Notes under the pieces: generated by a model
Databases searched by the model: none
Told to the model about the DNA's origin: nothing
The model's input: the letters and a program-made list of their open reading frames with translations, nothing else
Program-made: the position numbers and the translations under genes
Assembly: GCA_030613505.1 (NCBI GenBank)
Contig: JAUWLW010000020.1
Coordinates: 1-51,318 of the forward strand
Direction of reading: 5' to 3'
DNA length: 51,318 bases
DNA from: Candidatus Zixiibacteriota bacterium
Lineage (GTDB): Bacteria; RBG-13-66-14; B26-G2; WVWN01
In this document: positions 10,150-39,469 of the stretch, in pieces
Layout of the letters: each line of letters starts with the position of its first letter
How positions within the stretch are numbered: position 1 is the stretch's first letter

Positions 10150-10212
10150 TTACTTGAACAGCGCTTTGACTTTGCCGAGGGACTCGACCGCGACCGCGAC
10201 AAACAACTTCAT
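10150..10212 (-). pseudogene. Relic 3' end of a secreted-protein gene carrying the SLGKVKALF tail
   Basis: The minus-strand frame reads MKLFVAVAVESLGKVKALFK, then TAA. It has no ribosome site and is only 20 codons long. Aligned to the end of the beta-helix gene at 23238 (KKYSVAVSPTSLGRVKALFN) it matches along the whole length. I read it as the surviving 3' end of a deleted paralogue, still followed by its terminator. It could in principle be a genuine micro-ORF, but the lack of a ribosome site argues against that. Confidence 0.55.
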
Positions 10213-10229
10213 TTTATGTAGTCGGCAAT

Positions 10230-10922
10230 TTAAGACCCCCACCTATAGCCGAACGTGACCAGGAACGAGTTCGGCAGCTCGGCCTCCACTTTCTTGGTTT
10301 GTCTGAGGTTGTTTTCGTATTCGTAGACGGCCTTGCCAGCGGGCGCTACGGGGCCAAAGCGCCAGAATATAGTACTCGACGGCGTGAGCGTTATCTCGAC
10401 GCCGAACGGTACCGCGTACACGGGCTTGAAAGCCGTGACCGAATCCTCGAAAATGCCTTCTTTGGCGGAGCCGGGGAAACCTTCAATTTTATCTATGGAA
10501 GTGGGGACGATCGCGACGCCGCCGCCGATGCCGACGTACGGCGTTATAAGGCGGCTGCCGGCGGGTATTTTTAACCTGAGGATGAACGCCTCCACGACCG
10601 TAAATTGGTAAAAAGTCTGCTCCCATCCCTCTAAATCTTTGGTGCGCCACTCCCGGTGGAAGTGGGTGAAGCCGCCGTCCGTATCCAAACTCAGCGTCGG
10701 GATAATCCTTTTTTGGCGGAATTTCGCCACGTCGTACGTCATGCCGCCGCCCAGGTAGAACGTATAACCGTAAGACGCCGGGTAGAGCCTTTCGCCGGTT
10801 TCCTTGATAAAGGTCCAACCCCCCGGGGCTATGTCGGCCAGGCCGCCGTGGACAAAGGGTGCTAGAGCCGCAGCCGAGGCGGCGCATAGCGCAAACGCCA
10901 AGCCGAATACGACTATTTTCAT
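10230..10922 (-). CDS. Predicted outer-membrane beta-barrel protein
   Basis: This 230-residue protein has a clear signal peptide (MKIVVFGLAFALCAASAAALA). The mature part has alternating hydrophobic and polar strands rich in Gly and aromatics (YTFYLGGGMTYDV, LITPYVGIGGGVAIV). It ends in a strand, FLVTFGYRWGS, as in small barrels of the OmpA/OMP_b-brl type, though without a strict terminal Phe. AGAGGTGATT precedes the ATG. It is the only gene between two terminators and has its own promoter. The function is unknown; the protein at 17485 has a similar layout. Confidence 0.7.
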   Translation of the reverse strand: MKIVVFGLAFALCAASAAALAPFVHGGLADIAPGGWTFIKETGERLYPASYGYTFYLGGGMTYDVAKFRQKRIIPTLSLDTDGGFTHFHREWRTKDLEGWEQTFYQFTVVEAFILRLKIPAGSRLITPYVGIGGGVAIVPTSIDKIEGFPGSAKEGIFEDSVTAFKPVYAVPFGVEITLTPSSTIFWRFGPVAPAGKAVYEYENNLRQTKKVEAELPNSFLVTFGYRWGS

Positions 10923-10941
10923 AAGGGAATCACCTCTCGCT

Positions 10942-10970
10942 ATCTTAACTCGCTCTTAATCATTCCGCAA
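10942..10970 (-). promoter_or_regulatory. Sigma-70 type promoter of the beta-barrel gene
   Basis: TTGCGG (10965-10970) and TAAGAT (10942-10947) are spaced 17 nt apart on the minus strand, about 20 nt before the start codon. Confidence 0.5.
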
Positions 10971-10989
10971 TTACTTTTTACGGCATATA

Positions 10990-11018
10990 AAGAAAAGCCC
11001 GCCCTGGAAGGGGCGGGC
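10990..11018 (-). terminator. Terminator of the propeller gene at 11038
   Basis: GCCCGCCC-TTCCA-GGGCGGGC is followed by TTTTCTTT on the minus strand, about 20 nt after the stop. The other strand also has a T-run, so it may work both ways. Confidence 0.8.
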
Positions 11019-11037
11019 GATTTTTTCTCACTATCTT

Positions 11038-12609
11038 TTATTTTACCACTACCATCTTCCGCGCGGCCGACCTAGAGCCCGCATCTAAGCGGTAAACGTA
11101 GACTCCCGGGGCAAGATGAACGTGGAACGCCAGGTCGTGGCGGCCGGCGGCGAAATAACCCTCGGCGACGGCGGCGACCTTTCGGCCCGCGGCGTCAAAT
11201 AAGCCGAGCGTTATGTTGGCTCCCTCCGGTAGCTCGAAAGAGAACGTCGTAGCGCCCGCAACCGGGTTGGGAACGTTGGCGTAAAGCGCGAAAACCCGGC
11301 TTTTTACGGCAGGCGGGACCGTCGCGGGGCCGAAGGTTTGCCCCTTCCCCGTGGCGGCCACGGCCTCGAGCCAATAGCGACATTCCGTTGCCGGCGCGCG
11401 GCCGTCGGCGTAAATGAAAGGCGACCGCCCTTCGATAAGGACGTCGTTGATTTTACCGCGTCCGGCGCCGGCCGCCTCGCGGTAGAGGTTATAACCGGCG
11501 ACGGCCTCGGCGCGGCCGACGGCCCAGCGGATGTCTACGCCTGCGCGCGAACGCGTTGCCGTGAATGACGTGAGCTCTACGTCGGTGAAGTAGTGGTGGG
11601 CGAGCATTAAATCCCGTTTATTGCCGTGGTAGTAAGCGATTAAAGGATAGCCGTCAGAGCCGAGGGCGGTGGAGTGGGGGCCGATATATACGGCCGCGGC
11701 CACCGCTTCGCGGGTCCACGAACCTCCTTTCTTGGTAACTACGCGGAGATTCGATTTGGCGAAGCTGAAGTAAGAGATGAAGACGTCGCCCGCCGTATTA
11801 ACGCATATCTGAGTGAAGCCCGGCGTGCCGAGCGCGGCCTTCACGTTTTCAAATTTCCAACTCCCGCCGGTAGTTGAAACGGCGTAAATTATGCTGGCGT
11901 GGTCGGCCGTGGCGAAGCTGACGTGGAACTTGTTGTCGGGCCCGACGATAGCGTCGCAATCGGTGCCTTCGGCTATGTCGTCAATGACCCATTCTCCGGT
12001 TTTGAGTACGGCGTGCTTAACGCTGTCGCTTTTGTCGTGCCAATATACGATGTTAGGGTTACCGCCGTCGTCGTCGTACAGCGTATTAAAATAGCCGCTG
12101 CTGTATGCCACCGTCTCCGTATGCCAACCTCCTTCGTCGCGGTAGCCGTAGTACAAACGAGGATTCGTACCAGACGCTCTGTCGCACGAGATGTGGGGGT
12201 CGGTCGGCCACACGTTGATGGAAAGGTAGTTACCGTAGTCGGACCCTGATGCCACCCTCTCGGTCCGCCAATTGGAGCCCGAGCGATAGGCGTACGTTAG
12301 TTCTCCCGCTTTCATATCGCAGAAGAGGACGTACGGGTTATCAAACGGGTCCAACGTTAAAGCGGTCGCCCCGTAGACTTCAACGTCCTCCGCGACGTCC
12401 TCGAATTCCCAATACGAACCCGTGTACCGGGCGTACACGACTTTACCCTGCGTTTTATCGACGTAACTGATGTGCGGACGTTTCCACCGGTCTGTGGCGA
12501 GGGAACACCCGTAGCCGACGTCGCCCTCCGATGCTACGGTCTCCGATTTCCAACCGGCCCAAAGTGTGGACGGGGTCGTTAGAACTATTATTAGAAAAAG
12601 GTATCTCAT
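11038..12609 (-). CDS. Secreted beta-propeller protein with type A-like C-terminal domain (paralogue 1)
   Basis: This 523-residue protein has a short signal peptide (MRYLFLIIVLTTPSTLWA). A propeller-like domain (about 20-330) is built from repeats of the form W-x-x-E-x-V-A and P-H-I-S-Y (RPHISYVDKTQGKVVYARY, GSYWEFEDVAEDV). A fibronectin III-like segment follows (about 340-430; GYNLYREA, YWLEAVAATGKG). The C-terminal ~85-residue module has NVPNPVAGATTFSFELP, FDAAGRKVAAVAEG and GVYVYRLDAG and ends RKMVVVK. Such modules direct T9SS-type export in Bacteroidetes; the route here is inferred. AAGGAGGG precedes the ATG. The ligand is unknown. It is the longest of three tandem paralogues because only it has the FN3-like insert. 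Confidence 0.8.
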   Translation of the reverse strand: MRYLFLIIVLTTPSTLWAGWKSETVASEGDVGYGCSLATDRWKRPHISYVDKTQGKVVYARYTGSYWEFEDVAEDVEVYGATALTLDPFDNPYVLFCDMKAGELTYAYRSGSNWRTERVASGSDYGNYLSINVWPTDPHISCDRASGTNPRLYYGYRDEGGWHTETVAYSSGYFNTLYDDDGGNPNIVYWHDKSDSVKHAVLKTGEWVIDDIAEGTDCDAIVGPDNKFHVSFATADHASIIYAVSTTGGSWKFENVKAALGTPGFTQICVNTAGDVFISYFSFAKSNLRVVTKKGGSWTREAVAAAVYIGPHSTALGSDGYPLIAYYHGNKRDLMLAHHYFTDVELTSFTATRSRAGVDIRWAVGRAEAVAGYNLYREAAGAGRGKINDVLIEGRSPFIYADGRAPATECRYWLEAVAATGKGQTFGPATVPPAVKSRVFALYANVPNPVAGATTFSFELPEGANITLGLFDAAGRKVAAVAEGYFAAGRHDLAFHVHLAPGVYVYRLDAGSRSAARKMVVVK

Positions 12610-12789
12610 CTTGAGTCCCTCCTTATTTTTACGAGGATCACTTTAGCTTTCGAATAATAATAGCCCTTTTCGAGGCCGTGGCCAATTATGGCGTCCTAGT
12701 TTCGTCGACCGCCGGCGGCGGTTCTATCCGGGGAGCGCGAATATTCGGACGCCCGCCGATGAGGGGGGCTAAGCGGTAGTAACGTCCGG

Positions 12790-14160
12790 TTATCTAACTA
12801 TTACCATTTTACGTGCGGCCGTCCTCGAGCCGGCGTCGAGGCGGTAGACGTAGACTCCCGGGGCAAGATGAACGTGGAACGCTAGGTCGTGGCGGCCGGC
12901 GGCGAAATAACCCTCGGCGACGGCCGCGACCTTCCGGCCTGCGGCGTCAAATAAGCCGAGCGTTATGTTGGCTCCCTCCGGTAGCTCGAAAGAGAACGTC
13001 GTAGCGCCTGCGACCGGGTTGGGAACGTTCTGGAAGAGGGTAAAGGTCCCCGGCTTAGCGTCGCCCGGGTGGCGGTCGGCGGGCGGCCTCGGGCCGACGC
13101 CCAACGTGGGTTCGTAACGCGCCCACCGCAAGACTTTCCCGCTGGCGGCGTAGAAGACGATCTGCGGGTTGTCGCTGTTGCCGATGGCCATAACGTGCGC
13201 CATGCCGGTGAAGTTGGTATTCGTTATTCGTTTGTGCGTCCATTTCGTTCCGGTTTTCTTCACCACGTGAAGTTTCAGGGTGTCGAAGTTATAGTAGGAG
13301 ATGAACACGTCGCCGGCCGGCGTCACGCAGATCTGCGTGAACGCGGGGGAGCCTTTCGCGTTGGCCACTTCCTCCGTGGTCCACTCTTCGCCGTCGTACA
13401 CGGCGTAAACGAGGGCCGTGTTGTTGGTTTTGGCGAAACTTACGTGGATCTTACCGTCGGGGGTTAGGTAGGCGTCGCAATCCGTCCCTTCGGCTACCTT
13501 TTCGAACTCCCACGCGTCGCCGTTCAGCATGGCGTGCATTATGGCTTGTTCGTCGTAGTCGAGGTATATTGCGTGCGGCACTTGCCCGTAGTCGACGATG
13601 AGCGTGTTGAACCCACCTTTGGAGCCGCCGGTAGTTACGTTTTCCGCGGCCCAGGTAGTGCCTTCTTTGACAGCATATTTTAAATTCACGGCCATTGCGG
13701 ACGGTCGGTCATAAGTAACGCAGGCGTACCCGGTGGGCCATTGGCCGAAGGACATGTGGTTCCCCAAGACGCTGCCGTTATCAATTGTTTCTTTAACCCA
13801 ATTCTGTCCGACATCTTTGTAGACGTAGATTAATTTTCCTTCTTCCTGGTCGTGGTACATCACGTACGGCCTGTCGTAAACGTCTAGCGTTACGGCCGTG
13901 CTGTCGCTGGACGTTACGTCCACCGCTACGGTTTCATAATGCCATTGTTCGTCCTTCCGGGTGGCGTACGTTACCCAGTCTTTGCGTTGAGTTTGGTCGA
14001 GGAACGTGACGTGGGGATTGCCCTTGTTATCGATTTCGATGCAGCAGGCTTTGCCGCATTCTTTAGGGGTGATTTTCTCGATGACCCAGCCGTCTCCCCA
14101 GGCCGTCGCCGCCGTTACGAGCCATACCGTCATAACTACGGGTAAGCATTTCGCCTTCAT
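12790..14160 (-). CDS. Secreted beta-propeller protein with type A-like C-terminal domain (paralogue 2)
   Basis: This 456-residue protein has a signal peptide (MKAKCLPVVMTVWLVTAATAWG) and the same W/E/V propeller pattern as its neighbours (NPHVTFLDQTQRKDWVTYA, VFISYYNFDTLKLHVVKK). A short linker (GPRPPADRHPGDAKPGTF) leads to the C-terminal module with NVPNPVAGATTF, AAGRKVAAV and GVYVYRLDAG. That module is nearly identical in DNA to paralogue 1, whereas the propeller has diverged. AAGGAGGGCGG precedes the ATG. It has its own promoter, so the three paralogues are probably separate transcription units. It is likely exported and surface-bound or released. Confidence 0.8.
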   Translation of the reverse strand: MKAKCLPVVMTVWLVTAATAWGDGWVIEKITPKECGKACCIEIDNKGNPHVTFLDQTQRKDWVTYATRKDEQWHYETVAVDVTSSDSTAVTLDVYDRPYVMYHDQEEGKLIYVYKDVGQNWVKETIDNGSVLGNHMSFGQWPTGYACVTYDRPSAMAVNLKYAVKEGTTWAAENVTTGGSKGGFNTLIVDYGQVPHAIYLDYDEQAIMHAMLNGDAWEFEKVAEGTDCDAYLTPDGKIHVSFAKTNNTALVYAVYDGEEWTTEEVANAKGSPAFTQICVTPAGDVFISYYNFDTLKLHVVKKTGTKWTHKRITNTNFTGMAHVMAIGNSDNPQIVFYAASGKVLRWARYEPTLGVGPRPPADRHPGDAKPGTFTLFQNVPNPVAGATTFSFELPEGANITLGLFDAAGRKVAAVAEGYFAAGRHDLAFHVHLAPGVYVYRLDAGSRTAARKMVIVR

Positions 14161-14203
14161 GGTACCGCCCTCCTTAGCGTTGTGGTTAACTCATTTCCAC
14201 GCA

Positions 14204-14232
14204 ACCCTAATACGTTCACCTGACGATGTCAA
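14204..14232 (-). promoter_or_regulatory. Promoter of paralogue 2
   Basis: TTGACA (14227-14232), a 17-nt spacer and TAGGGT (14204-14209) on the minus strand, about 40 nt before the ATG. Confidence 0.65.
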
Positions 14233-14357
14233 TCCTTTTTTTATGTATTAGTCGGGGTGTAGATTTTTTTAGTATTTGTGACTAAACGCGGATTCCATCA
14301 CCTTCGGACACGCGGAGCTAAAACGCTTGTCGCCGCCGGAGCTAAAACGACGGAGAC

Positions 14358-14407
14358 GAAAACCCCCACGGGCAACCGGCGCGCGGCGAAGAACTTTTCC
14401 GTGGGGG
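14358..14407 (-). terminator. Terminator of paralogue 3
   Basis: A 9-bp stem (CCCCCACGG / CCGTGGGGG) with a long loop is followed by TTTTCG on the minus strand, about 40 nt past the stop of the gene at 14447. The remaining part of the 14161-14446 gap holds a doubled GGAGCTAAAACG sequence and the promoter of paralogue 2. Confidence 0.65.
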
Positions 14408-14446
14408 ATTATTAGAAAGGTACAATCGGTGCTTGTTGTTTCGCGA

Positions 14447-15796
14447 TTATTTCGTGACCACCATCCGTTTCAAAGCCGTGTTAGCGCCGGCCTGTAGGCG
14501 GTAGACGTACACACCCGGCGCTAAGCGGTTTCGGAAAGTAACGTTGTGGCGGCCGGCGGCGAAATAACCCTCGGCGACGGCCGCGACCTTCCGGCCTGCG
14601 GCGTCAAATAAGCCGAGCGTTATGTTGGCTCCCTCCGGTAGCTCGAAGGAGAACGTTGTCGAGGCCGAAGCCGGGTTGGGAACGTTCTGGAAGAGGGCAA
14701 ATGTCCCCGGCTTAGCCTCGCCCGGGTGGCGGTCGGCGGGTATGGGCGGTTCGATACCAGAGGTGGGGTCGTAACGGGCTAACATCAAGTCCTGTTTGTC
14801 GCCGTGGTAGTACGCGATCATCGGGCGGCTGCCGCTGACGCCGGAGGAGTGGGGAAGGCCGACGTACGCGCTGTTCGCGACGACTTCGTGGGTCCAGGTT
14901 CCGCCTTTCTTGATTACGACGCGCAGGTCGTGATTGTCGAAGTTGAAGTACGAGATGAAGACGTTGCCCGCGGCGTTGACGCAAATCTGCGAAAATGCGG
15001 GAGCGCCTTTGTAGGCTTTTACGTTTTCGATACTCCAACTCCCGCCGGACGTAGAGACGGCGTAGTTGAGGCCGTCGTTGTTAGGTTTGGGGAGGCTGAC
15101 GTGGACCTTGTTATTGGGGCCTAAGTAAGTGTCGCAGTCGATACCTTCGGCGATATCGTCTATCGACCACTCTCCGCTCTTACGCACGGCGTGCCTAACG
15201 CTCATGGTTCCGTTGTTCCAGTATACGACGTTGGGGTTGTTGTCGTTGTCTATGAACAAAGAGTTGAACATTCCGCCGCCGCTGGAGACCACCGTTTCAG
15301 TTTGCCAATTCCCACCCTCGCGGTAGGCGTACTTCAAACCGACGTTCATACCTACCGGTCGGGTGTACGCGATATGGGGCCCGGTGGGCCACGCGCTAAT
15401 GGAGACGTACGCCCCGTAGCCCGAGCCGCTGTCGATCGTTTCTGTATTCCATAAGGGGCCGGAAAGGTAGGCGTACGTCAATTCGTCCGTTTTGTTGTCT
15501 TGGAAGACGACGTACGGTTTGTCGAAAGCGTCGAGCGCGAGGGCGGTATTGCCGGCTACTTCAACGTCCTCCGCGATGGTCCAGAAGTCCCAGGTGGACC
15601 CGGTATAAACGGCGTAGTTAACAGATCCGTTGGTCTTATCCACATACGAGATATGGGGCCGACCCCACCGATCTACGGCGAGGGAGCAGCCGTCGCCGAC
15701 GTCGCCGGCGGACCGGACCGTCTCGGATTCCCACCTCGCCCAACCCGTTACGGCCAGCGCTAAAAGAAATGCGCCGATAATCGACACCATTTTCAT
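14447..15796 (-). CDS. Secreted beta-propeller protein with type A-like C-terminal domain (paralogue 3)
   Basis: This 449-residue protein has a signal peptide (MKMVSIIGAFLLALAVTGWA). Its propeller is closer to paralogue 1 than to paralogue 2: both share GCSLA-DRW-RPHISYVDKT and EDVEV. The linker IPADRHPGEAKPGTF and the C-terminal module match paralogue 2. The cassette ends GVYVYRLQAG and KRMVVTK. AAGGAGGAG precedes the ATG. The combination of a paralogue 1-like propeller with a paralogue 2-like linker suggests module exchange between the three genes. It is probably exported; its ligand is unknown. Confidence 0.8.
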   Translation of the reverse strand: MKMVSIIGAFLLALAVTGWARWESETVRSAGDVGDGCSLAVDRWGRPHISYVDKTNGSVNYAVYTGSTWDFWTIAEDVEVAGNTALALDAFDKPYVVFQDNKTDELTYAYLSGPLWNTETIDSGSGYGAYVSISAWPTGPHIAYTRPVGMNVGLKYAYREGGNWQTETVVSSGGGMFNSLFIDNDNNPNVVYWNNGTMSVRHAVRKSGEWSIDDIAEGIDCDTYLGPNNKVHVSLPKPNNDGLNYAVSTSGGSWSIENVKAYKGAPAFSQICVNAAGNVFISYFNFDNHDLRVVIKKGGTWTHEVVANSAYVGLPHSSGVSGSRPMIAYYHGDKQDLMLARYDPTSGIEPPIPADRHPGEAKPGTFALFQNVPNPASASTTFSFELPEGANITLGLFDAAGRKVAAVAEGYFAAGRHNVTFRNRLAPGVYVYRLQAGANTALKRMVVTK

Positions 15797-15833
15797 AGTA
15801 GCTCCTCCTTGAGAAATTCGAATTTACTCGTTG

Positions 15834-16080: not shown

Positions 16081-16100
16081 AACTTATTCGAGCGGTTGTC

Positions 16101-17306
16101 TTATTCGGCGTCGTCGGTTGAGCATTCCGGCGAATGTGAACCGGAGGTTGGGGTACCGGAGGCGTTTGTGGGGCCGGGCGCCGCAGGCACGAGGTATGCG
16201 TCCGTTAGCGGCCCCTTCGAATCCGAACCGCGGCCGGCGGCGTAGAGCGCCTTAACGCGCCCGAGCGACGCCGGCGCTATATTCGGCTTGGTCGTGTAGT
16301 GTAGTATTTTATTGTAGGTGAGGGCCCACGCCTCGACCGGCGAAACGAACTCGATATTACCTAATGCATACCGTACCGGGCACGCGCATTCGTGCCACGT
16401 CCCCTCGCGGCAACGCCATAATCGGCCCCCGTAATCTTTGCCTTTTCGATAGTATCCGACGGCCCACCCGTTGTCACCATCCCACATCGCGACGTCGTGG
16501 ATAGCGTAATGGTACCCCGGCCTGAAAACTTCGCGCCACGACGTGCCGTCGAACCGAAGCACTCTGCTTCCTCGAGAGTCGTTCACCCGCGGATATCCGA
16601 CGGCCCATATTTCCGTCGGCGATTTGAAGTCGCAGGGTTTAAGGGACACTACGTCCGGTACCGAGGTCCAATAACGCCAGCCGTCCGGCGTAAGACGATA
16701 CATATCCGTGCCGTCGAAACCCAACCCCTCCCCCGGGGAAAAGAAATACAATAAGTCCATGCCGTAGCGGCCGGGGTCTTCGTACCAACTCCATTCGCCG
16801 CCTTGGTAATTGAAAATGTAATACGAGTAGGGGTCGAAATCGGGCCGCCCTACGAACCATATGTCGTCGGCCGAAGTCATCGCGAGGGCGCGCATTTCGC
16901 GCATGTGCGGGGCTTCTATCTTTCGCCCGCCCGGATTTATATTCGAGGCCGAATAGATCGTGACGTACGCCGGGTATCTTGGGCCGTCCAGGTATTCCGG
17001 GTAGTAGTGGCCGAAGGCGGCGTCGCCGTTAGCGGCTACGTCCAACCCGCCGAAGCCGGCCCCCCGTACGCTTTTAAATATGCAGGACCAAGTCCCTTGG
17101 CCCCGGAAGATGTAAAACCAGTACTCGGGTCAATCCGGACTGCCGCGATCGTCGAGCCGATTTTCGTAGCCGGCGCAATACCCGGTAGGTCGGGCGTCCA
17201 GGTCGAGGTCTCTCAGCGCTGTATATTCGGGCGCTTCGTAAACGACCTCCCACGCCGCGCCGGCGGCCGAAATAAAAATGGCGGCGCCGAACAAACCGGC
17301 CCGCAT
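16101..17306 (-). CDS. Secreted protein with SLGRVKALY tail motif, interrupted by one in-frame UGA
   Basis: From the ATG at 17304-17306 the frame reads MRAGLFGAAIFISAAGAAWE (signal peptide) and continues to PTGYCAGYENRL. It meets TGA at 17130-17132 (after GSPD) and goes on in the same frame with PEYWFYIFRGQGTW for 340 more codons without another stop. The body has propeller-like repeats (DIWFVGRPDFDP, EIWAVGYPRVND, GWAVGYYRKG). The tail motif APASLGRVKALY is followed here by an extra ~47 low-complexity residues. A CTG at 17325-17327, preceded by GGGGG, is a possible alternative start that lengthens the signal peptide. A 10-bp hairpin follows the UGA (17083-17105). Either a nonsense mutation or Sec/readthrough is possible. 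I found no other defect in the frame. Confidence 0.65.
17083..17105 (-). promoter_or_regulatory. Hairpin downstream of the in-frame UGA (bSECIS-like candidate)
   Basis: In the mRNA a 10-bp stem (CGGGGCCAAG / CTTGGTCCTG, two G-U pairs) closes a GGA triloop. The loop lies 35-37 nt after the UGA at 17130-17132. Bacterial SECIS hairpins are known to sit with the apical loop roughly 16-37 nt after the UGA and to have a G early in the loop. Both conditions are met, the first only at its limit. GC-rich DNA forms hairpins readily, so this is a candidate only. Confidence 0.3.
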
Positions 17307-20348: not shown

Positions 20349-20393
20349 TTACCCGAGCGGCGCCTTCGCGCTACCCAGCGACGTCGCCGTTTT
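20349..20393 (-). pseudogene. Out-of-frame vestige of the SLG tail behind the lipoprotein gene
   Basis: Just past the lipoprotein stop, in another frame, the minus strand reads KTATSLGSAKAPLG and then TAA. At DNA level a 29-bp stretch matches the tail-coding sequence of the gene at 23238 at 25 positions, including 13 identical bases in a row. The lipoprotein may once have ended with the tail and lost it by a frameshift, or the tail of a neighbour was left behind. Confidence 0.4.
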
Positions 20394-21450
20394 AATTAAC
20401 GCCGGTGAAGTGCAGTATGTACGCGTGGCCTTCTATGCCGCCGGTACCGGCCCAGACGTCGTCTTCGCCGCAGGCGCAGAATTCGATCCAACCGAGGTTG
20501 TCCCAGGGCCACGGGTACGACGTGAACAGGCCGTCGTCGTACAACCAACTCTTCGCGTAACCGGACCCGGAGTCGGTCAGCCAGCCGTACGCGGGGGAGA
20601 CGAAGTCACAATCGCCGCCGCCGAGCAAAGGACAATCGACCTCCCGCCACGAGGAACCGTTGTAGTGGAAAAGGGCTCCCGCGCCGGCGTCCCCCGAGCG
20701 CGAAGCGAGCAGCCATCCGTCGTTGGGGCCGGTGAAGTCCAGCGCTAGGTATTGGGCCACCGGTTCGCCCGGGACGTTCACTTCCAACCAGCTCGAGCCG
20801 TCCCACCGGTACAAACTTTCCGCGCCTTCGTATTGGCCGCACCCCCAACCTTCTTTCTCGCTTACGAAATATAACTCGCGGATGTCGGGGCCGTCGAGTT
20901 GGAGAGTCCAGCTGTTGCCGTCGTAGTACAAAATTTGGCCGTTATCGGGGTTCTGCCAATAATGCGACGTCGCGATCCACCCTTTGTCGGGCGCCAGGAA
21001 GAACGCGTCGTTTACGTAGACGATGCCGCTTACGCCGGTAGATACGACCGTCCAGGTCGAGCCGTCGTAATGGAAGAGGTGAGGGTCGCCGGGGCCGGAT
21101 ATGTCACCGGCCACCCACACGTCGTTGGCGGTAGGAGTGCTTAAGGAAAACAGGGATACGTTACAGGAAGGGAACTCCTCCCCCAAGTTGGTATGTAGCT
21201 GCCACCCCCGGCCGTCGTAACGGAAGACGCGGTTTTTGGCACAGGCCCAACCGTTGTTGGGGCCCGTAAATTCGAGGCCCGCGAAACCAGCCGTGGCACC
21301 CGGTTCGCCGTGGTAGAAATCTAACGCTACCTCCCAGGGGCTTTGAGGGTCGGGCGGCGGACGGCCGGGCGGTTGCCCGTCCTCTTCGGCGCACCCGGCG
21401 AATATTAGCGCTAATGTAACAGTAACGCCGATAACCGTTGCCGTTTTCAT
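20392..21450 (-). CDS. Lipoprotein with WD/BNR-like propeller repeats
   Basis: This 352-residue protein begins MKTATVIGVTVTLALIFAGC, a signal peptide with a good lipobox (FAGC). Its body has recurring units of the type F-x-G-P-N-N/D-G-W and V-F-R-Y-D-G (FTGPNNGWACA, HYDGSTWTVVS, FTGPNDGWLLAS, YGWLTDSGSG). These suggest a propeller with one G-W-motif per blade. It should be membrane-anchored outside the cytoplasm. It resembles the body of the interrupted gene at 16101 (both carry repeats of the WAVGY/DGSSW kind). The normal C-terminus is YILHFTGVN. A decayed SLG tail lies just behind it. Confidence 0.75.
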   Translation of the reverse strand: MKTATVIGVTVTLALIFAGCAEEDGQPPGRPPPDPQSPWEVALDFYHGEPGATAGFAGLEFTGPNNGWACAKNRVFRYDGRGWQLHTNLGEEFPSCNVSLFSLSTPTANDVWVAGDISGPGDPHLFHYDGSTWTVVSTGVSGIVYVNDAFFLAPDKGWIATSHYWQNPDNGQILYYDGNSWTLQLDGPDIRELYFVSEKEGWGCGQYEGAESLYRWDGSSWLEVNVPGEPVAQYLALDFTGPNDGWLLASRSGDAGAGALFHYNGSSWREVDCPLLGGGDCDFVSPAYGWLTDSGSGYAKSWLYDDGLFTSYPWPWDNLGWIEFCACGEDDVWAGTGGIEGHAYILHFTGVN

Positions 21451-23237: not shown

Positions 23238-23990
23238 TTAGTTAAACAGCGCTTTCACGCGACCCAGCGACGTCGGCGAAACAGCGACGCTGTACTTCTT
23301 GGCGCCGATGTCCTTGCTGCCCTCGCCCGCGCCGCGGCAGGGCGAACTCTCCGACAGGTAGAAGTTATTCTTGTCATAGCCGACGAAGAGGGGGTCGGCA
23401 TGGATCTCGCCGGTCCCCGGTGACGGGTAGAACACACGCCACGAACCGCCACCTCAACCCGGGCACCAGTACATGTAGTTTCCGCCCTTGTTGTTGTCCA
23501 CGTCGTTGTAGAGGATGTTCGTGGTGCCGGTGTATTCGTGCTTGGCGATGCCGTAGGTAGCGTTGCCCCAGATGATGTTGTTCTTGATCGTGGCCGTTGA
23601 ATATTCCCAAACGCGGACGCCGGCGATGCCGTTGCTCTTACAAATAGTGTTGCCGTCGATAGTGCCGCTGGCGCCGTTTGTGATGTTTATGGCGCCGTAG
23701 TAGCCGGCTTCAATGAGGCAGCAACTGGAGATGTCGAGTTGCGTTCCGCTGCCACCGGCTTGGACGTTGCCGCCGTCGAGGTCGACGAGGGCACCGTTCC
23801 CGCGTATGCAGGACTTCTTTCCTATCATGACGCCACAGCCGCCGGTGTACGTCTCCTTCGGGTCGAGAATTAGGAGCTTGTCGTAGCCCTCTCCCGGGCC
23901 GGCCTTGTCGTAGGCGATTTGTAGTTTGACGCCATATGCGGCCGCGGCGGCGATAAGAAAGCAAACCGTAACGATTAGCAGTTTCTTCAA
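23238..23990 (-). CDS. Secreted right-handed beta-helix protein with SLGRVKALFN tail, interrupted by one in-frame UGA
   Basis: The TTG start at 23988-23990 is preceded by GGAGGTG and opens a signal peptide (MKKLLIVTVCFLIAAAAAYG). Repeats of a parallel beta-helix follow (GSGTQLDISSCCLIEAG, TIKNNIIWGNATYGI). After YMYWCPG the frame meets TGA (23454-23456), then continues in the same frame: GGGSWRVFYPSPGTGEIHAD, DPLFVGYDKNNFYLSESSP, ending with the tail PTSLGRVKALFN. The part behind the UGA is the usual ending of such beta-helix proteins (DPLF, SPCxGAG, DIGA), so both halves belong together. The codon gives C-P-G-U if read as Sec, or was TGG/TGC before mutation. An 8-bp stem begins at the next base. 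Total 250 codons including the UGA. Confidence 0.7.
23419..23453 (-). promoter_or_regulatory. Hairpin immediately after the in-frame UGA (bSECIS-like candidate)
   Basis: In the mRNA GGTGGCGG, directly after the UGA, pairs with CCGTCACC over 8 bp (one G-U) with a 19-nt loop. Position is compatible with bacterial SECIS elements, but the large loop is not typical. It may equally be a chance hairpin in Gly-rich coding sequence. Confidence 0.25.
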
Positions 23991-24266: not shown

Positions 24267-26165
24267 TCAGTTCGTGTAACCCAATGACCTTAGCGCCTCC
24301 GCCAGATCGCCGCCGGTGTGGCCGGAGGTTTCGACGACCGTCTTTTTAATATGGTCGGCTAATTTGCCGCGGTAAAGCTCATACGCGGGATCGTCCACGC
24401 GCCCCCCAAGGTCGCGCGTTTCGGCGGGGTCCGTCACGAGGTCGTAACATTCGTATCGTTGATCGTCGACGTCGAATATAAGCTTCAACGAGCTTGTCCG
24501 GAGGCAATACTTCCGGCTCACCTCGGCGCCGGGAGACAGCGTCGCTTTAACGTTGGTTTGCGAAAACCCCCAGGGGGGAGGCGCGGCGGCCGGGTCGTCG
24601 CGGACGGTTAGCAGGTCGAGGCGTCGGCCGCGGTACGCCTCCGCGGGCGCGCCGGCGGCCGCGAGTATCGTGTACGCCAGGTTCAACGTTTCGACCTGGG
24701 TCCGGACGTAGCGGGGGCGTAGAGGGGCAGCGGGTTTGATCATCAGGCAGACCCGCGTTTCCGAGTCGTAAACCGTTCCGCCGTGTAATTTGGCGCGATG
24801 CTCGCCGAAAGACTCGCCGTGGTCGCTCGCGACGACGACTAGCGTCCGGTCGTAATCTCCACGGCGCCGTAAGCCGTCGAGCAGATTACCTAAGGCCCGG
24901 TCCATAAAATGGATCTCGTCGTCGTAGAGGGCCTCAATCGCCGCCGTATACGCGGGCCGGGGGTTGCCGCTTTTGTATTTACGCCACCGGTGTCTCAACT
25001 CGACCTGCTCACCTACGAAATCCACCGGGGGGACGCCGTCGTAGAATCGCTCCGCGGCGCCGCGGTATCGGTATGGGGCGTGGGGATCAAAATAATGGGC
25101 GAAGAGAAAGAGAGGTCGATCCCGCCGCCGGCCCAGGAGGCGGAGGGCGGTCGCCGTTACCGCCGGCGCCGGCCGTAACGTACCGAATAATTTTTTATTA
25201 ACCGCCGTGGCGGACCGATAAAGAACGGCGTGGCGGAAATAGGACCACCGATTTATATAGTCGTTGTAATACCGGAATCCACGCCCGAGACCCGAAAGCC
25301 GGCGATCCAGCGGGAAGCCTCCCGTGACGCCGATCGTTTCATAGCCGTAGGCCGCCAATAGTTCGGCGAGCGTGGGCGCGTCGGATCGAAAGGGTATAAA
25401 ATTGGAGACAACGCCGTGCTCGGCGGGGTACAAACCGGTGAACATGCTAACGTGGGAGGGGTTGGTTGTCGGCTGCACGCACAGGGCGTTCTCGTAAAAA
25501 ACCGTCTCCCCCGCGAAGGCGTCGACGTAAGGCGAGGTGTTCCGGGGGTATCCGTAACAACCCAGGTGGTCGGCGCGAAGCGTATCGAGAGATATGAATA
25601 TGACGTCCGGGCCGACGGCCTTGGGAGGAGTGGCTCCTCTAATCTCGGGCAGTACGAAAAACACGGCCGAGGCGGTAACGTAAACGAAGGCGGCCGCGAT
25701 CAGGACCGGTTTCTTCGCGATTTTGCCCCTAAGCACCCGCCACCCGACGGCCGCGGCAAGCGCGCCCAATCCGCACGCGGCGAATACGCCGAGTTTATAC
25801 GGATGCGTGAAACGCAGGCCGTGAAAAAGCTGACTTCTAACGGTAAGCGCGGCGTATGTTGCCCATACGACGGATACGAGACCGATTTCGGCGAGGGCCG
25901 CGGAGCGACGTTTTGCGGCCGGTATTAACTTTCCGACGAATAACGCGGTTCCGTAAAGGGCAATAGTAAGGGCGGCGACTGCGGCTAAATCGCTCGCCAG
26001 CGTCGCGCCGTAAACGAGGGCCCGAGAACCTGCCGGTACTTGCCCGCCGTGCCCGGCGAGAAAAAGTAGCGTCTCGACGGCGCCGAGGGCGAACCCGTAA
26101 GCGACGGCGATTTTTAATACCCCGTAAAACTCGCGCAAGTTCGTACCTGCTGGTTTTAAGGCCAT
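24267..26165 (-). CDS. Membrane-anchored sulfatase-fold protein, Thr nucleophile (paralogue)
   Basis: This 632-residue protein has about five transmembrane helices before residue 180, then a sulfatase-fold domain. Its opening is VIFISLDTLRADHLGCYGYP. The nucleophile region reads CVQPTTNPSHVSMFTGLYP, so Thr (T-N-P-S) takes the place of Cys. The distal metal motif is VVASDHGESFGEH. It ends LRSLGYTN, like its paralogues. GAGGTAAAG precedes the ATG. Without the Cys/Ser for formylglycine it is unlikely to be a sulfatase; phosphoethanolamine or glycerophosphate transfer, or phosphodiester cleavage in the periplasm, are alternatives. It follows the small membrane protein gene at 26185 by 19 nt in the same direction. 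Confidence 0.85.
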   Translation of the reverse strand: MALKPAGTNLREFYGVLKIAVAYGFALGAVETLLFLAGHGGQVPAGSRALVYGATLASDLAAVAALTIALYGTALFVGKLIPAAKRRSAALAEIGLVSVVWATYAALTVRSQLFHGLRFTHPYKLGVFAACGLGALAAAVGWRVLRGKIAKKPVLIAAAFVYVTASAVFFVLPEIRGATPPKAVGPDVIFISLDTLRADHLGCYGYPRNTSPYVDAFAGETVFYENALCVQPTTNPSHVSMFTGLYPAEHGVVSNFIPFRSDAPTLAELLAAYGYETIGVTGGFPLDRRLSGLGRGFRYYNDYINRWSYFRHAVLYRSATAVNKKLFGTLRPAPAVTATALRLLGRRRDRPLFLFAHYFDPHAPYRYRGAAERFYDGVPPVDFVGEQVELRHRWRKYKSGNPRPAYTAAIEALYDDEIHFMDRALGNLLDGLRRRGDYDRTLVVVASDHGESFGEHRAKLHGGTVYDSETRVCLMIKPAAPLRPRYVRTQVETLNLAYTILAAAGAPAEAYRGRRLDLLTVRDDPAAAPPPWGFSQTNVKATLSPGAEVSRKYCLRTSSLKLIFDVDDQRYECYDLVTDPAETRDLGGRVDDPAYELYRGKLADHIKKTVVETSGHTGGDLAEALRSLGYTN

Positions 26166-32449: not shown

Positions 32450-32455
32450 TAACGT

Positions 32456-33842: not shown

Positions 33843-33888
33843 GCTACCAGCGACTAACCGAAAGTTAACCCGTGCGGGAGGTATAATA

Positions 33889-34122: not shown

Positions 34123-34150
34123 TAGCGTTGACATTACGGTTTGGTTAAGT

Positions 34151-34176
34151 GCCGAGGCCGGTGGCCTCGGCTTTTT
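34151..34176 (+). terminator. Terminator of the small basic gene
   Basis: GCCGAGGCC-GGT-GGCCTCGGC followed by TTTTT. Confidence 0.9.
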
Positions 34177-34221
34177 CTCGAACTTGCTAGCGGTTGCCGG
34201 GATCGCGGTAAGCGTTTTCAC

Positions 34222-34250
34222 TTGATTAAACCGGCGCCGTGTGCTATAAG
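34222..34250 (+). promoter_or_regulatory. Promoter of tRNA-Ile
   Basis: TTGATT (34222-34227), 17 nt, TATAAG (34245-34250), 10 nt before the tRNA 5' end. Confidence 0.75.
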
Positions 34251-34259
34251 TAGAAGGAA

Positions 34260-34335
34260 GGGCCTATAGCTCAGCTGTGGTTAGAGCGCGCGCCTGATAA
34301 GCGCGAGGTCACAGGTTCGACTCCTGTTAGGCCCA
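34260..34335 (+). tRNA. tRNA-Ile (anticodon GAT)
   Basis: A full cloverleaf is present: acceptor GGGCCTA/TAGGCCC, D-arm AGCTCAG, anticodon loop CTGATAA with GAT, and T-arm ACAGG-TTCGACT-CCTGT. CCA is not encoded. It has its own promoter and terminator, and is not in an rRNA operon, where tRNA-Ile is often found. Confidence 0.97.
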
Positions 34336-34339
34336 CAGG

Positions 34340-34362
34340 GCCCGCTGCCGGCGGGCTTTTTT
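34340..34362 (+). terminator. Terminator of tRNA-Ile
   Basis: GCCCGC-TGCCG-GCGGGC followed by TTTTTT. Confidence 0.9.
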
Positions 34363-34382
34363 ACGTGAAGACATGAGTCGCT

Positions 34383-35135: not shown

Positions 35136-35194
35136 CGACGGGACGCGTTTAACGGTAACTTTTCGGCCGGCACCGAGTCGTAAACGGAGGAAAT

Positions 35195-35398
35195 ATGCCG
35201 GACAATAAATTGAGCGAGCTCGAGCAACGGATCGACGTGCTGGAACGGCGCGTCGGGCTGGTGGAGGAGGGTTACGTCGAAGACGAGAAGCGGAACCGCC
35301 GGGCGCGCAAGATGAATATGTGGCTCCGTATTACTATCTACGTGATGTTCCTTTTGTTGATGGTGCTCTTCCTCGTCGTCTTCAAAGTGCGCTTCTGA
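35195..35398 (+). CDS. Small protein with coiled coil and one C-terminal transmembrane helix
   Basis: This 67-residue protein starts with a heptad-like helix (LSELEQRIDVLERRVGLVEE) and ends with a strong transmembrane helix (ITIYVMFLLLMVLFLVVF). It is a tail-anchored type, with the helix N-terminal part in the cytoplasm. GGAGG lies just before the ATG. The FN3 lipoprotein gene starts 6 nt after its stop. The function is unknown. Confidence 0.7.
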   Translation: MPDNKLSELEQRIDVLERRVGLVEEGYVEDEKRNRRARKMNMWLRITIYVMFLLLMVLFLVVFKVRF

Positions 35399-35404
35399 TC
35401 TGCT

Positions 35405-35764
35405 ATGAGACTCGCCGTAGTTTTCATAGTATCGTCGATCGGATTGCTGGGATGCGCCGACGACGGCCGACCTCCGGCGCCGTACAACGTTACGGCGGAG
35501 ACCGGGGGCGGCGCGGCGGAGTTGCGGTGGAGTTACAAGGCCGCGCCGGGGTTGGACTGTTTTTTAATTCAACGTTCCGAAGGTTTCAATTACAACTTCC
35601 TCGACGTAGCGAAGTCGCCCGCGGGTAAACTTTACTATTACGACGGCGACGTAGCCGTCGGCGAGCGGTACTACTATCGCGTGGCCGCTTTTTTCACGAC
35701 TTGGAACGACGAGAAAGACGTGTTGAGTAGATTCTCCCCCGAGGTGGCCGTTAAGATTGAGTGA
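35405..35764 (+). CDS. Lipoprotein with a single fibronectin type III-like domain
   Basis: This 119-residue protein begins MRLAVVFIVSSIGLLGC, with the lipobox LLGC at residues 14-17. The mature part is one FN3-like fold: PPAPYNVTAETGGGAAELRW, FLIQRSE, YYDGDVAVGERYYYRVAA. It would sit at a membrane facing the periplasm or exterior. It is followed after 18 nt by the membrane glycosyltransferase gene. The role is unknown; a binding or adaptor module is plausible. Confidence 0.75.
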   Translation: MRLAVVFIVSSIGLLGCADDGRPPAPYNVTAETGGGAAELRWSYKAAPGLDCFLIQRSEGFNYNFLDVAKSPAGKLYYYDGDVAVGERYYYRVAAFFTTWNDEKDVLSRFSPEVAVKIE

Positions 35765-35782
35765 CCGCTTTAGGAACAGGTT

Positions 35783-37360
35783 ATGACGCGGGCGGACTTA
35801 AAGATCGCGGCCGCCCTTTTTTTGACTTTCGTCGGCCTCTACGCGCTGTGCGCCCCGGGGCACTTCTATCTTCTCGATTCCTCCTTTAAGCTCACGTGGG
35901 CCGAGAACGTCGTCGAGCGCGGCCAGCTCCACTTCGACCGCGACCAGATCGGCAAAGAGTCCCGCATCGGCACGTACTTCTACCCGGGGCGCAACGGCGA
36001 GCTCTACATCCACTTCCCGCTGGGGAGTCTCTTCTGTTTCATACCGGCGGCACTCCTCGGCGCCGCGGCGACGAAGGCGTTCCCCGCGTTGGCCCAATGG
36101 GACGTCGGTTATTCGCTGGCGTCATTCAACAACGTTTTATGGGCGGCGGCCTCGGCGGCGCTGCTGTACTGGTTAGCGCGTCGACTCGAGCGGCCGCCGC
36201 GGCGTGCCGCGGCCGCGGCCGTCATCTTCGGCGTCGCAACGCCGCTGCTGCCGTACGCGACGTACGACTTCAACGAGCCGGCGGCCGGCTTCTTCGTCCT
36301 GCTCGCGGCGGCGTTGATAATAGCGGGTTGGGAGAAACGCTCCGTTAAGTATCCGGTCGGCGCCGGCCTGGCTCTCGGCTTCGCCTTTACGATACGCTAC
36401 GAGCTGCTCGCGTTCGCGGCAGCGGCCGCGGCGTTGTGGTTCGTCTTTACATTGGCCCGCAAGTCGCGGTGGCGGGATTTCTTTGCGTTCGCGGTCGGCT
36501 TCGCCGCGGTGGCGGCGGTCGTGCCGTTATACAATTGGTACGCCCGCGGCAGCGCCGACAACTTCGCGTACAACACGCTGCCGTTCTTCACCAACCTCAT
36601 TAAAGCGCGGTTCGAGCCGCTGGGGGGCGGCGGGCCGCTGCTCTCCGTCGGGCGGTTCCTGTGGGTCTATTTCTTGTCGCCCAACATGCACAACGTTATA
36701 TTATACTGCCCGCTCGCGGCGTTCGGCGTGGGCGCGACGGTGGCTCTCGTTAAGTCGTACGGCCGCCGGGTTTTATTCATCATAGTGCCGGCGTTGGGCC
36801 TAGCTGCGGCGGTACTCTTCACGACGTACTCGAGCTGGGCGTGGGGGCTGCGGTACGCGTACGTGTTCTGGGTTATTCTGGCCGCGGCCGGCGTTCTCGC
36901 GCCGCGGCGGCGCCGATGGGTTAAAATAGTCTTCGCCGCCTGCGTGGCGTGGGGGATAGCGCTCGGCGTCGTCGCCGTCGCCGCCGACTACCAGCTGACG
37001 CAGAACGACATAGCGGTCGACGTAATCGGTGACTCGAAGAGGGTTAATTTCCGCGGTTGGTTGCCGGCGGGGCGGGCCGACCCGCGGTACTCGCAAATAC
37101 TGTGGCATTTTAAGTACGCCGGCCTGGCCGTCGCGCGGACCGTCGACTACTACGTCCACCGCGGCGAGCTGCGCTGGCTCGACAGGCCGCCGCCTGGCCT
37201 TAAGGGCGACGACCGCGCGCTGCTGGATATTTGGCCGGTATACGCGCAGGTGCGCTGCGAGGCGCCGGCCGCGGCCGTCTGGCCGCCGTACCTATTATTA
37301 TTAGTAGGCACCGTCGCCGCGGCGCGGTGGCTCAAACGCGTAGTCGATGCTTCTGCTTGA
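35783..37360 (+). CDS. Polytopic GT-C (PMT/ArnT-like) glycosyltransferase
   Basis: This 525-residue protein has about eleven transmembrane segments. The first periplasmic loop carries LLDSSFKLTWAENVVERG, a position where PMT/GT39-like enzymes have acidic catalytic residues, and HFPLGSLFCFIPAAL follows. A soluble stretch with ADYQLTQNDIAVDVIGD lies near residue 400. It would use a polyprenyl-phosphate sugar to modify a surface glycan or lipid. AGGAACAGG precedes the ATG. It closes the small envelope cluster that begins at 34383. The substrate is unknown. Confidence 0.72.
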   Translation: MTRADLKIAAALFLTFVGLYALCAPGHFYLLDSSFKLTWAENVVERGQLHFDRDQIGKESRIGTYFYPGRNGELYIHFPLGSLFCFIPAALLGAAATKAFPALAQWDVGYSLASFNNVLWAAASAALLYWLARRLERPPRRAAAAAVIFGVATPLLPYATYDFNEPAAGFFVLLAAALIIAGWEKRSVKYPVGAGLALGFAFTIRYELLAFAAAAAALWFVFTLARKSRWRDFFAFAVGFAAVAAVVPLYNWYARGSADNFAYNTLPFFTNLIKARFEPLGGGGPLLSVGRFLWVYFLSPNMHNVILYCPLAAFGVGATVALVKSYGRRVLFIIVPALGLAAAVLFTTYSSWAWGLRYAYVFWVILAAAGVLAPRRRRWVKIVFAACVAWGIALGVVAVAADYQLTQNDIAVDVIGDSKRVNFRGWLPAGRADPRYSQILWHFKYAGLAVARTVDYYVHRGELRWLDRPPPGLKGDDRALLDIWPVYAQVRCEAPAAAVWPPYLLLLVGTVAAARWLKRVVDASA

Positions 37361-37385
37361 CCGCGTCTCGGCATGATATTAAAAT
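37357..37385 (+). promoter_or_regulatory. Promoter of tRNA-Ala
   Basis: TTGACC (37357-37362), overlapping the preceding stop codon, 17 nt, TAAAAT (37380-37385), 10 nt before the tRNA. Confidence 0.7.
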
Positions 37386-37395
37386 ATATCTGAAA

Positions 37396-37468
37396 GGGGG
37401 CGTAGCTCAGTTGGCGGAGCGGCGGCTTTGCAAGCCGCAGGTCGGCGGTTCGAATCCGCTCGCCTCCA
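37396..37468 (+). tRNA. tRNA-Ala (anticodon TGC)
   Basis: Acceptor GGGGGCG/CGCCTCC, D-arm AGCTCAG, anticodon loop TTTGCAA with TGC, and T-arm GGCGG-TTCGAAT-CCGCT. CCA is not encoded. It stands alone with its own promoter, again outside any rRNA operon. Confidence 0.97.
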
Positions 37469-37485
37469 CATCGACGATACGATAA

Positions 37486-37508
37486 CGGCGGCCTTCGGGC
37501 CGCCGGTT
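37486..37508 (+). terminator. Hairpin terminator behind tRNA-Ala
   Basis: An 8-bp stem CGGCGGCC-TTCG-GGCCGCCG is followed by a weak TTTA run. It lies between the convergent tRNA-Ala and radical SAM genes and may serve both. Confidence 0.6.
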
Positions 37509-37512
37509 TAAT

Positions 37513-38382
37513 TTAGAATCCCCGGTGCAAACCCAGCGCTCGCGCCGCGTCTTTCACTTTTTCGATCTCTTCCCACGTCGGCGGCCTCATGAGCGCGGGT
37601 ACCTCGTCGGCGCGGTAGCAAGGCCGGTACTGCGCCATGATATTCACGTACGAGTCTGGCGACAGCTCCTCGGCGATAAATTTTAAGACCGGCTCGCTGT
37701 CGGCGAGGCCGTTCGGCAGGACGAGGTGGCGGATGAGAAGGCCGCGCGTCGCGACGCCGCGGCCGTTTACCTCCAGATCGCCCACCTGGCGGTGCATCTC
37801 GCGTAGCACCTCTGTCATCCTCTCGAAGTAGTCGGGCGCGGCCGAAAGGTCCGCCGCCGGCGCCGCGGGGCCGTACTTCGCGTCCGGCATATATATATCT
37901 ACGTGACCCTCGACCAGCTTGAGTGCCTCGACGCCGTCGTACCCGCCGGAGTTGTAGACGACGGGGACCGTCAGGCCCCGCGCCCGGGCGAGCTCGATCG
38001 CTTCCGCCACCGCCGGCGTGACGTGCGTGGGCGTCACGACGTTAACGTTCTCGCAGCCCTGGCGCTCGAGCGCGAGCATCATTTCGGCTACCTTCGCCGG
38101 CGTTACCTCCCGGCCCGTGCGTAGGTGGCTGATGTCGTAGTTCTGGCAGAAGATGCAGCCCAGGTTGCAGCCGGCGAAGAAAATCGTGCCGGAGCCGCCG
38201 CGTCCCACGAGCTCCCGCTCCTCGCCGAAGTGGGGGCCGGCGGATGCGACGAGCGGCAGTACGCCGACGTCGCAGGTGCCGCGTTCGCCTTCGGCCCGCA
38301 ACGCGCCGCACTCTCTTGGGCAAAGGCGGCACGGCGACGCGAGCGCGTAGAGCGCGTTGACCAATTCGCTTCGCGGCGGCAT
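37513..38382 (-). CDS. Radical SAM protein, pyruvate-formate-lyase-activase-like (COG1313/PflX type)
   Basis: This 289-residue protein has the radical SAM cluster in AGCNLGCIFCQN (C-x3-C-x2-C). An N-terminal Cys-rich region (CRLCPRECGAL, GTCDVG) may hold a second metal site. NVVTPTHVTPAV and VYNSGGYDG are typical of the COG1313 group. It cleaves S-adenosylmethionine to a 5'-deoxyadenosyl radical; its target protein is not established for this group. No glycyl-radical enzyme gene is nearby. The start ATG has no strong ribosome site. Confidence 0.88.
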   Translation of the reverse strand: MPPRSELVNALYALASPCRLCPRECGALRAEGERGTCDVGVLPLVASAGPHFGEERELVGRGGSGTIFFAGCNLGCIFCQNYDISHLRTGREVTPAKVAEMMLALERQGCENVNVVTPTHVTPAVAEAIELARARGLTVPVVYNSGGYDGVEALKLVEGHVDIYMPDAKYGPAAPAADLSAAPDYFERMTEVLREMHRQVGDLEVNGRGVATRGLLIRHLVLPNGLADSEPVLKFIAEELSPDSYVNIMAQYRPCYRADEVPALMRPPTWEEIEKVKDAARALGLHRGF

Positions 38383-38443
38383 TTCGGTACGAATTTACCA
38401 TAAGAAAGCGGGAGCGGCGAGAGCTTATCGGAAATGAAGCCGA

Positions 38444-38472
38444 TTGTGAAAGGGCGAGAGGTGTGTTATTTT
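38444..38472 (+). promoter_or_regulatory. Promoter of the secreted propeller gene at 38519
   Basis: TTGTGA (38444-38449), 17 nt, TATTTT (38467-38472). Confidence 0.5.
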
Positions 38473-38518
38473 AGGTTGAATGTCGCTTACGCGACGGCGA
38501 TAGCGAGGAGGTTCAGTC

Positions 38519-39469
38519 ATGCGCGGCGCAGTGATATTTGTAATAATGTGTATCGCCGCGGCGGCGTACGCCACGGGCGGCGGCGCCTGGGTCGGCGATA
38601 CCTGGGGCGGCAGGATGGTCAAGCTCTCGCCGAGCGGTTCTATCGTGCGGACAGTGGGGCCTTTCGTTTACCCGTACGGCGTCGCCGTTGACCCCAACGA
38701 CGGTAGCGTTTGGTTCACCGTGAACGCGCAGACCGTCGTGAAGATGACGGCCGAGGGTCAAGAGTTCTTCCGCCGGAGCTACAATACCGAGCAGATATCG
38801 GTGAACCCGGGCGACGGGGCGTGCTGGATCCGCCTTCATAACCCCCGCGGCGTCGCCCGGCTGGATAAAAACGGGACCGAGACGGCCAACGTGCCGTTGG
38901 GGCGGGCGAACTGGGTGTCTTCCGCCGCCGCCGACGGAACGTGCTGGGTGACGGACGGGACGGCAGGGGTATTGCTAAGGGTCACGACCGCCGGTTCGGT
39001 TATCTCGTCGTTCGGCGGCTTCAGCTCGCCCGGCGGGTGCGCCGCCCACGCCAAGGATAACTCCGTGTCCGTCGTCGAGAGCGGCAACGTCGTCCGGGTG
39101 AGCACCGCGGGGAGCGTCGTCTTCCGGACGCCGCTGGCGAGCGGCTTCTGCGTCGACGTAAACCATTCCGACGACTCGAGCTGGGTCGGCGCCGGGAACG
39201 CTCTTTACAAACTGAACGGCGGCGGCTCGATCGTGAATACGATCGGCGCGGGCGGCATGGTAAACGTCGTCACGGTCAACAGTGGCGACGGTTCCGCGTG
39301 GGTCGCCATTTACGACCTGAACTCGATCGCGAAGTACACGTCGACGGGATCGATGGTCTTTCTCCTTCCCGGTTTCAACAAGGTTAAAGGGATGGCCGCC
39401 GAGCAGGAGCCCGCTTACCCCGGCGTAGCGCCCGCGAGTATGGGAAAAGTTAAAGCGCTATTCCGCTAA
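38519..39469 (+). CDS. Secreted NHL-like propeller protein with SMGKVKALFR tail
   Basis: This 316-residue protein has a short signal peptide (MRGAVIFVIMCIAAAAYA). The body has repeats of the NHL/streptogramin-lyase kind: GVAVDPNDGSVWFTVN, VNPGDGACWIRLHN, AADGTCWVTDGTAG, VNSGDGSAWVAIYD. After VAPASMGKVKALFR it ends directly. The tail matches those of the genes at 16101 and 23238. GAGGAGG precedes the ATG. This is the one intact full-length gene of the tail group in the window. The next gene starts 17 nt later and may be co-transcribed. The ligand is unknown. Confidence 0.82.
   Translation: MRGAVIFVIMCIAAAAYATGGGAWVGDTWGGRMVKLSPSGSIVRTVGPFVYPYGVAVDPNDGSVWFTVNAQTVVKMTAEGQEFFRRSYNTEQISVNPGDGACWIRLHNPRGVARLDKNGTETANVPLGRANWVSSAAADGTCWVTDGTAGVLLRVTTAGSVISSFGGFSSPGGCAAHAKDNSVSVVESGNVVRVSTAGSVVFRTPLASGFCVDVNHSDDSSWVGAGNALYKLNGGGSIVNTIGAGGMVNVVTVNSGDGSAWVAIYDLNSIAKYTSTGSMVFLLPGFNKVKGMAAEQEPAYPGVAPASMGKVKALFR

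Follow-up and report, generated by a model that had tools for sequence, protein, structure and literature searches.

A short C-terminal tail on Sec-exported proteins of Coatesbacteria and other phyla as a probable sorting or docking tag

The window analysed here is the whole of a 51,318-nucleotide contig (JAUWLW010000020.1, C62 in our numbering) from a draft genome of 2.86 Mb, 93% complete, which was assigned to Candidatus Coatesbacteria. Some of the secreted proteins that it encodes end in a tail of 10–13 residues with the general form [VA]-x-P-x-[ST]-[WLF]-G-x-[IV]-K-[AS]-[LM]-[FY]-[RK]-COOH, in which the glycine and the lysine are invariant; the tail sits outside the folded body, at a fixed spacing from the C-terminus and after a proline-containing linker. 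Judged by its sequence and distribution, this tail is very probably a real sorting or docking tag of some kind. The account that we favour overall, and consider reasonably probable, is that it acts autonomously on proteins exported by the Sec pathway, most likely via the type IX secretion system (T9SS). That T9SS itself reads the tail is put forward tentatively, since this step of the account may well prove wrong. It is also fairly probable that at least five candidate phyla share an undescribed sorting route with a receptor of its own, for which the tail is the signal, either as a third T9SS class of about 13 residues or as a separate surface-display system.

Run as a degenerate DNA pattern on this genome, the exact motif S-[LMIF]-G-[RK]-V-K-A-L-[FY] was found at 86 sites (43 + 43), versus none (0 + 0) for the reversed pattern that served as the control for chance matches. 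Around these sites 102 tails could be read, 99 of them with exactly one residue between motif and stop, and a 20-residue profile, also used for the counts in relatives, detects at least 150 tails in the same genome (G000). The sequence-only reading of the window had foreseen that tens of secreted proteins, here and in related metagenome-assembled genomes (MAGs), would combine a signal peptide with the motif at their very end, and such proteins were found. The 46 identical SLGRVKALF peptides are encoded by 38 different DNA sequences, with a mean of five nucleotide differences per pair, and homologs with only 20–30% body identity are still 67% identical over their last ten residues. Since identical tails are spelled with different codons, selection on the amino acids of the tail appears strongly supported; a DNA repeat or a terminator overlapping the stop codons was ruled out, as the codon usage of the tail varies freely. 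Tandem arrays of tail genes are frequent (contigs C11, C12, C30, C71 and C100 of G000), and many of the genes are found close to the end of a contig, as though assembly breaks off at the arrays.

A signal peptide was called in 93% of the complete tail-bearing open reading frames (ORFs) versus 27% of the other ORFs; six of the 15 exceptions are interrupted by an in-frame TGA, with the signal peptide found upstream, and the signal peptides of the carriers are of the ordinary Sec type. Carriers are small, with a median ORF of 275 amino acids versus about 605 for proteins with a T9SS type A domain (n = 26), and their folds include NHL and other beta-propellers, beta-helices, FG-GAP repeats and jelly-roll-like bodies, besides unassigned ones. 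Sorted by sequence, the bodies fall into 65 clusters, which upholds the earlier view that the folds ahead of the tail are unrelated. For one FG-GAP carrier, AlphaFold gave a model with a pLDDT of mostly 70–90 over the body and below 50 over residues 294–310, with no strand in the last 17 residues; the model of a propeller from the window, built from 31 sequences, was poor (mean pLDDT 62) and was not used to assign a fold. These data bear directly on the explanation that the tail is no signal at all, merely inherited by duplication from one ancestral protein. Several carriers do belong to tandem paralog arrays and the NHL cluster is large, but the number of unrelated bodies, the much higher conservation of tail than of body and the occurrence in different phyla lead us to reject this explanation as scarcely credible. 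The sequence-only reading had itself left room for a motif confined to recent duplicates, or one that is frequent among cytoplasmic proteins or away from the protein's end; the first is contradicted by the same evidence, and the motif is common in neither of the other two settings.

The tail is not restricted to the species of the window. By the profile, three sister species have 132 to at least 150 tails, other members of the class 87, 37 and 20, and another family within the Coatesbacteria phylum 3 to 23 per genome. The pattern P-x-[ST]-W-G-x-[IV]-K-[AS]-[LM]-[FY]-x-stop was scanned against 84,980 species genomes and returned at least 120 stretches, whose titles are almost all Eisenbacteria, Latescibacterota, Krumholzibacteriota, Delongbacteria, Fermentibacterales, Coatesbacteria or unnamed MAGs; in 50 of the genomes so found a broader pattern occurs 1 to 100 times per genome (reversed control, 0), and ORFs from the stretches of other lineages have the architecture seen in the genome of the window. 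A complete Latescibacterota genome holds 68 profile matches. Among Eisenbacteria the strict pattern is present in 33 of 47 genomes, and the profile finds variants in several others, including tails such as TTWGKIKARFR and STWGAIKRLYR in a seemingly tail-less clade. Four stray lineages (Pantoea, a Syntrophobacterales, a Bacillota and a Legionellaceae genome) gave one match each, and in 200 sampled Pseudomonadota a tail with a true stop was absent, the three matches each having TGG at the stop position. Tail-poor genomes retain one or a few tails; in the tail-poor Eisenbacteria L240, L241 and L242 the tail sits on apparently one secreted family with a similar C-terminal region. The tail might also be a degradation or quality-control tag for a periplasmic protease. 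In its extreme C-terminal position and its ending of hydrophobic residues plus a basic one it broadly resembles C-terminal degrons; yet each genome has it genetically fixed on some hundred intact genes, and purifying selection maintains it in different phyla, so that a degron is very improbable.

If the tail is a tag, its mode of action may be pictured as follows. The protein would be exported by Sec to the periplasm via its N-terminal signal peptide; there the free tail would probably turn helical on contact (a Ser/Thr cap, then W/L-G-x-I/V-K-A-L/M-F/Y-R), and one dedicated, putative receptor would bind it by its aromatic/aliphatic face, its invariant glycine and lysine and its C-terminal end, so that the protein would be brought to the cell envelope or retained there, the outer surface being the likeliest place. 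The machine would most likely be T9SS; the tail would then join the type A and type B domains as a third kind of cargo signal, reduced to a minimum and handled by a shuttle protein of its own. T9SS is the leading candidate because its translocon SprA (Sov) is encoded in almost all tail genomes: searched with TIGR04189 (E ≤ 0.001), it was found in 14 of 14 Coatesbacteria, 45 of 46 tail lineages and 46 of 47 Eisenbacteria, and in none of 14 control genomes. The four stray lineages have none, and several matches elsewhere are weak fragments. In two sister species sprA adjoins oppositely oriented tail genes (G000:C76:33400-40130 and G004:C80:500-9420), which encode NHL propellers in G000.

The tail genomes thus have T9SS plus two kinds of C-terminal label, and the relation between the two labels is informative. 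Type A domains number 23–67 per Coatesbacteria genome, that is, they vary within about threefold, while tails range from a few to at least 150; one count being steady and the other variable, the labels are not simply interchangeable. The earlier statement that no protein carries both holds across 269 tail ORFs, in which three regular-expression hits proved spurious by eye, and a few related bodies carry either a tail or a type A domain. Like the type A domain (TIGR04183, Por_Secre_tail), the tail is a C-terminal recognition element on unrelated bodies with Sec signal peptides, has a near-invariant lysine close to its end and occurs in genomes that also encode the other kind. In type A domains the nearly invariant lysine near the C-terminus is functionally important (PMC10994853); its counterpart in the tail is suggestive only. 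In type A domains about 70–80 residues fold into a beta-sandwich; the tail has about 13 and is unfolded in the model of the FG-GAP carrier, where no such sandwich was seen. The short T9SS signals of Prevotella intermedia likewise stand, in shortened form, at the C-terminus of secreted proteins, but they still have 40–55 residues, in which three beta-strands are predicted and motifs B, D and E are present, and for these the tail is too short (PMC11969387).

Several observations weigh against the account that we favour. No receptor was identified in this analysis. The shortest reported T9SS signals are folded domains of about 40–55 residues (PMC11969387), and a profile comparison by hhalign detected no similarity between the tail and the type A domains in the window (probability 0.2%). 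The signal peptides were called by a home-made heuristic, and the AlphaFold model of the FG-GAP carrier places a helix at residues 303–309 with very low confidence. One tail-bearing draft (G046) has no SprA match and a few others have weak ones; conversely, SprA is kept by nearly all of the 14 Eisenbacteria, out of 47, in which the strict pattern is missing. Since SprA hardly varies, its co-occurrence with the tail means compatibility and not dependence. The sequence-only reading had suggested looking for a co-occurring protease or transpeptidase, or a secretion system, missing where the tail is missing. A specific partner enzyme found no support: covariation with the tail was shown for no protease or transpeptidase, SprA and the C25 peptidases hardly vary in their presence, and SprA also occurs in Eisenbacteria lacking the strict pattern, although the variant tails in their seemingly tail-less clade leave the comparison of SprA profiles without power.

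The large variation in tail number, far beyond that of type A domains, may also be read in favour of an anchor, by which the tail would fasten the protein to some receptor or scaffold that is fixed in the envelope and has no part in T9SS, in the manner of dockerins or encapsidation peptides. Like a docking peptide, the tail is short and strictly terminal and shows no fold in the model, and its carriers are mostly small single-domain proteins, often in paralogous sets. No scaffold is known in the tail genomes, the search having covered only the T9SS and C25 families, and we regard an anchor of this kind as possible but doubtful. Cargo of encapsulins or microcompartments is likewise marked by a short C-terminal docking peptide on unrelated proteins; this cargo is cytosolic and the tail proteins are exported, so that docking of the encapsulin type misfits carriers with signal peptides.

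A further explanation takes the tail as a processing signal, before or within which a protease or transpeptidase would cut, linking the protein to a sugar or lipid of the cell surface in the way that PorU treats T9SS cargo. Peptidases of the C25 family (PorU/gingipain fold) are found in 14 of 14 Coatesbacteria, and the invariant glycine and lysine would suit such a role; a cleavage motif is not recognisable, covariation with a processing enzyme was not shown, and the tail is without the transmembrane segment or basic anchor of the PEP-CTERM type, all of which makes processing unlikely. The PEP-CTERM/exosortase, GlyGly-CTERM/rhombosortase and MYXO-CTERM/myxosortase systems resemble the tail in being short, C-terminal and present in many copies on diverse secreted proteins (PMC1569441, PMC3237569, PMC11980579). 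In their signals the motif is followed by a transmembrane helix and a basic cluster, whereas the tail has no transmembrane helix and ends one residue past the motif. Here, NHL proteins with a match to ScyF, which is a PEP-CTERM protein, end in the tail instead.

No match over the tail was obtained in Pfam or NCBIfam, whether tails only or whole proteins were scanned, and TIGR04183 is not among the best 25 of 38 NCBIfam families for 67 carriers, nor was it found in eight further proteins and tails. A literature search on C-terminal sorting in Eisenbacteria gave no paper, and among the papers listed for Coatesbacteria and for T9SS in the tail phyla none describes it in title or abstract, in agreement with the earlier remark that no named signal with this sequence is known. 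Listed in none of the family libraries searched, the tail resembles an address label, as yet unnamed, for the placement of proteins. Sequence data by themselves thus allow at least 150 exported proteins of this genome, by the profile, and 68 of the complete Latescibacterota genome to be assigned to one sorting class, and this in phyla about whose cell surfaces almost nothing is known; a tail profile would let annotators recognise the carriers. If T9SS reads the tail, the use of this system would extend beyond Bacteroidota, and the tail would be the smallest T9SS signal known to us; if it does not, an undescribed receptor remains to be found.

Within the window, all five tail sites named by the sequence-only reading exist on re-reading, and two of them are intact tails at a stop codon. 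The first belongs to a Vgb-lyase-like, NHL-type beta-propeller with a clean Sec signal peptide (38519..39469, + strand; Pfam PF24684, E 1.5e-11, under the curated cut-off), which ends in VAPASMGKVKALFR followed by the stop (39425..39469, the intact tail at the stop being 39437-39469). The second ends a secreted beta-helix protein (23238..23990, − strand), whose last residues, VAVSPTSLGRVKALFN, precede the stop and include the tail SLGRVKALFN (23238..23270 with the stop). From a TTG start this protein has 250 residues if an in-frame TGA is read as selenocysteine; table 11 splits the gene in two at that TGA (23456-23454), and the tail-side piece alone is a 71-codon frame. Of the three proteins named for the motif, these two thus have it as a terminal tail and the third does not, a propeller gene (16101..17306, − strand; signal peptide start at 17306) in which the motif IAPASLGRVKALY (16268-16242) is followed by 46 further residues and is hence not terminal. 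This gene also has an in-frame TGA (17132-17130) between signal peptide and propeller body and, given both the run-on and the TGA, is probably a damaged copy; with no neighbouring cysteine, that TGA is likelier a nonsense mutation than a selenocysteine codon. The remaining two sites were correctly described as relics. One is a 20-codon mini-ORF without a body (10150..10212, − strand), in which a signal-peptide start, MKLFVAVAVE, is joined directly onto the tail SLGKVKALFK and its stop, probably by deletion. The other is a decayed tail, SLGSAKAPLG plus stop (20349..20381, − strand), out of frame behind a propeller-like secreted protein (20392..21450, − strand) that appears, partly by inference, to have lost its tail by frameshift.

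Five further secreted proteins of the window have type A-like C-terminal domains and formed the comparison set: 11038..12609, 12790..14160 and 14447..15796 (all − strand), an FG-GAP-like protein, as judged by eye (41640..43574, + strand), and one that looks peptidase-like by eye and has a divergent domain (4721..7156, − strand).

The beta-helix protein is probably a selenoprotein. Its in-frame TGA (23454..23456, − strand), the candidate selenocysteine codon, stands in the context CPG-U-GGG, two paralogs in L031 have a TGA at the corresponding site, and in the family as a whole the TGA lies in a C-x-G-U context (CPGU, CPGU, CVGU) between signal peptide and tail. A selenocysteine tRNA is encoded in the window (50539..50632, + strand; RF01852, 66.7 bits, gathering threshold 47), and Rfam gave no match to a selenocysteine insertion sequence at the beta-helix TGA. 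Six members of a second tail-bearing secreted family (four genes in L035, and one each in L001 and L029) have a TGA directly after a cysteine or in a CGS/CGT context (PYCGSU, PWCGTU, FYGCU, SACU, SGCU, RGCU), and in most of them a hairpin can be drawn 15–35 nucleotides downstream; relatives at L053 and L035:1393 are without the TGA. On the in-frame TGAs and the tRNA, both families are candidate secreted selenoproteins, and ORF callers split the beta-helix candidates in two.

Three membrane proteins that look sulfatase-like by eye (7313-9151, 24267-26165 and 48378-50387) end in -MGYVK, -LGYTN and -LGYVQ, a common ending that differs from the tail.

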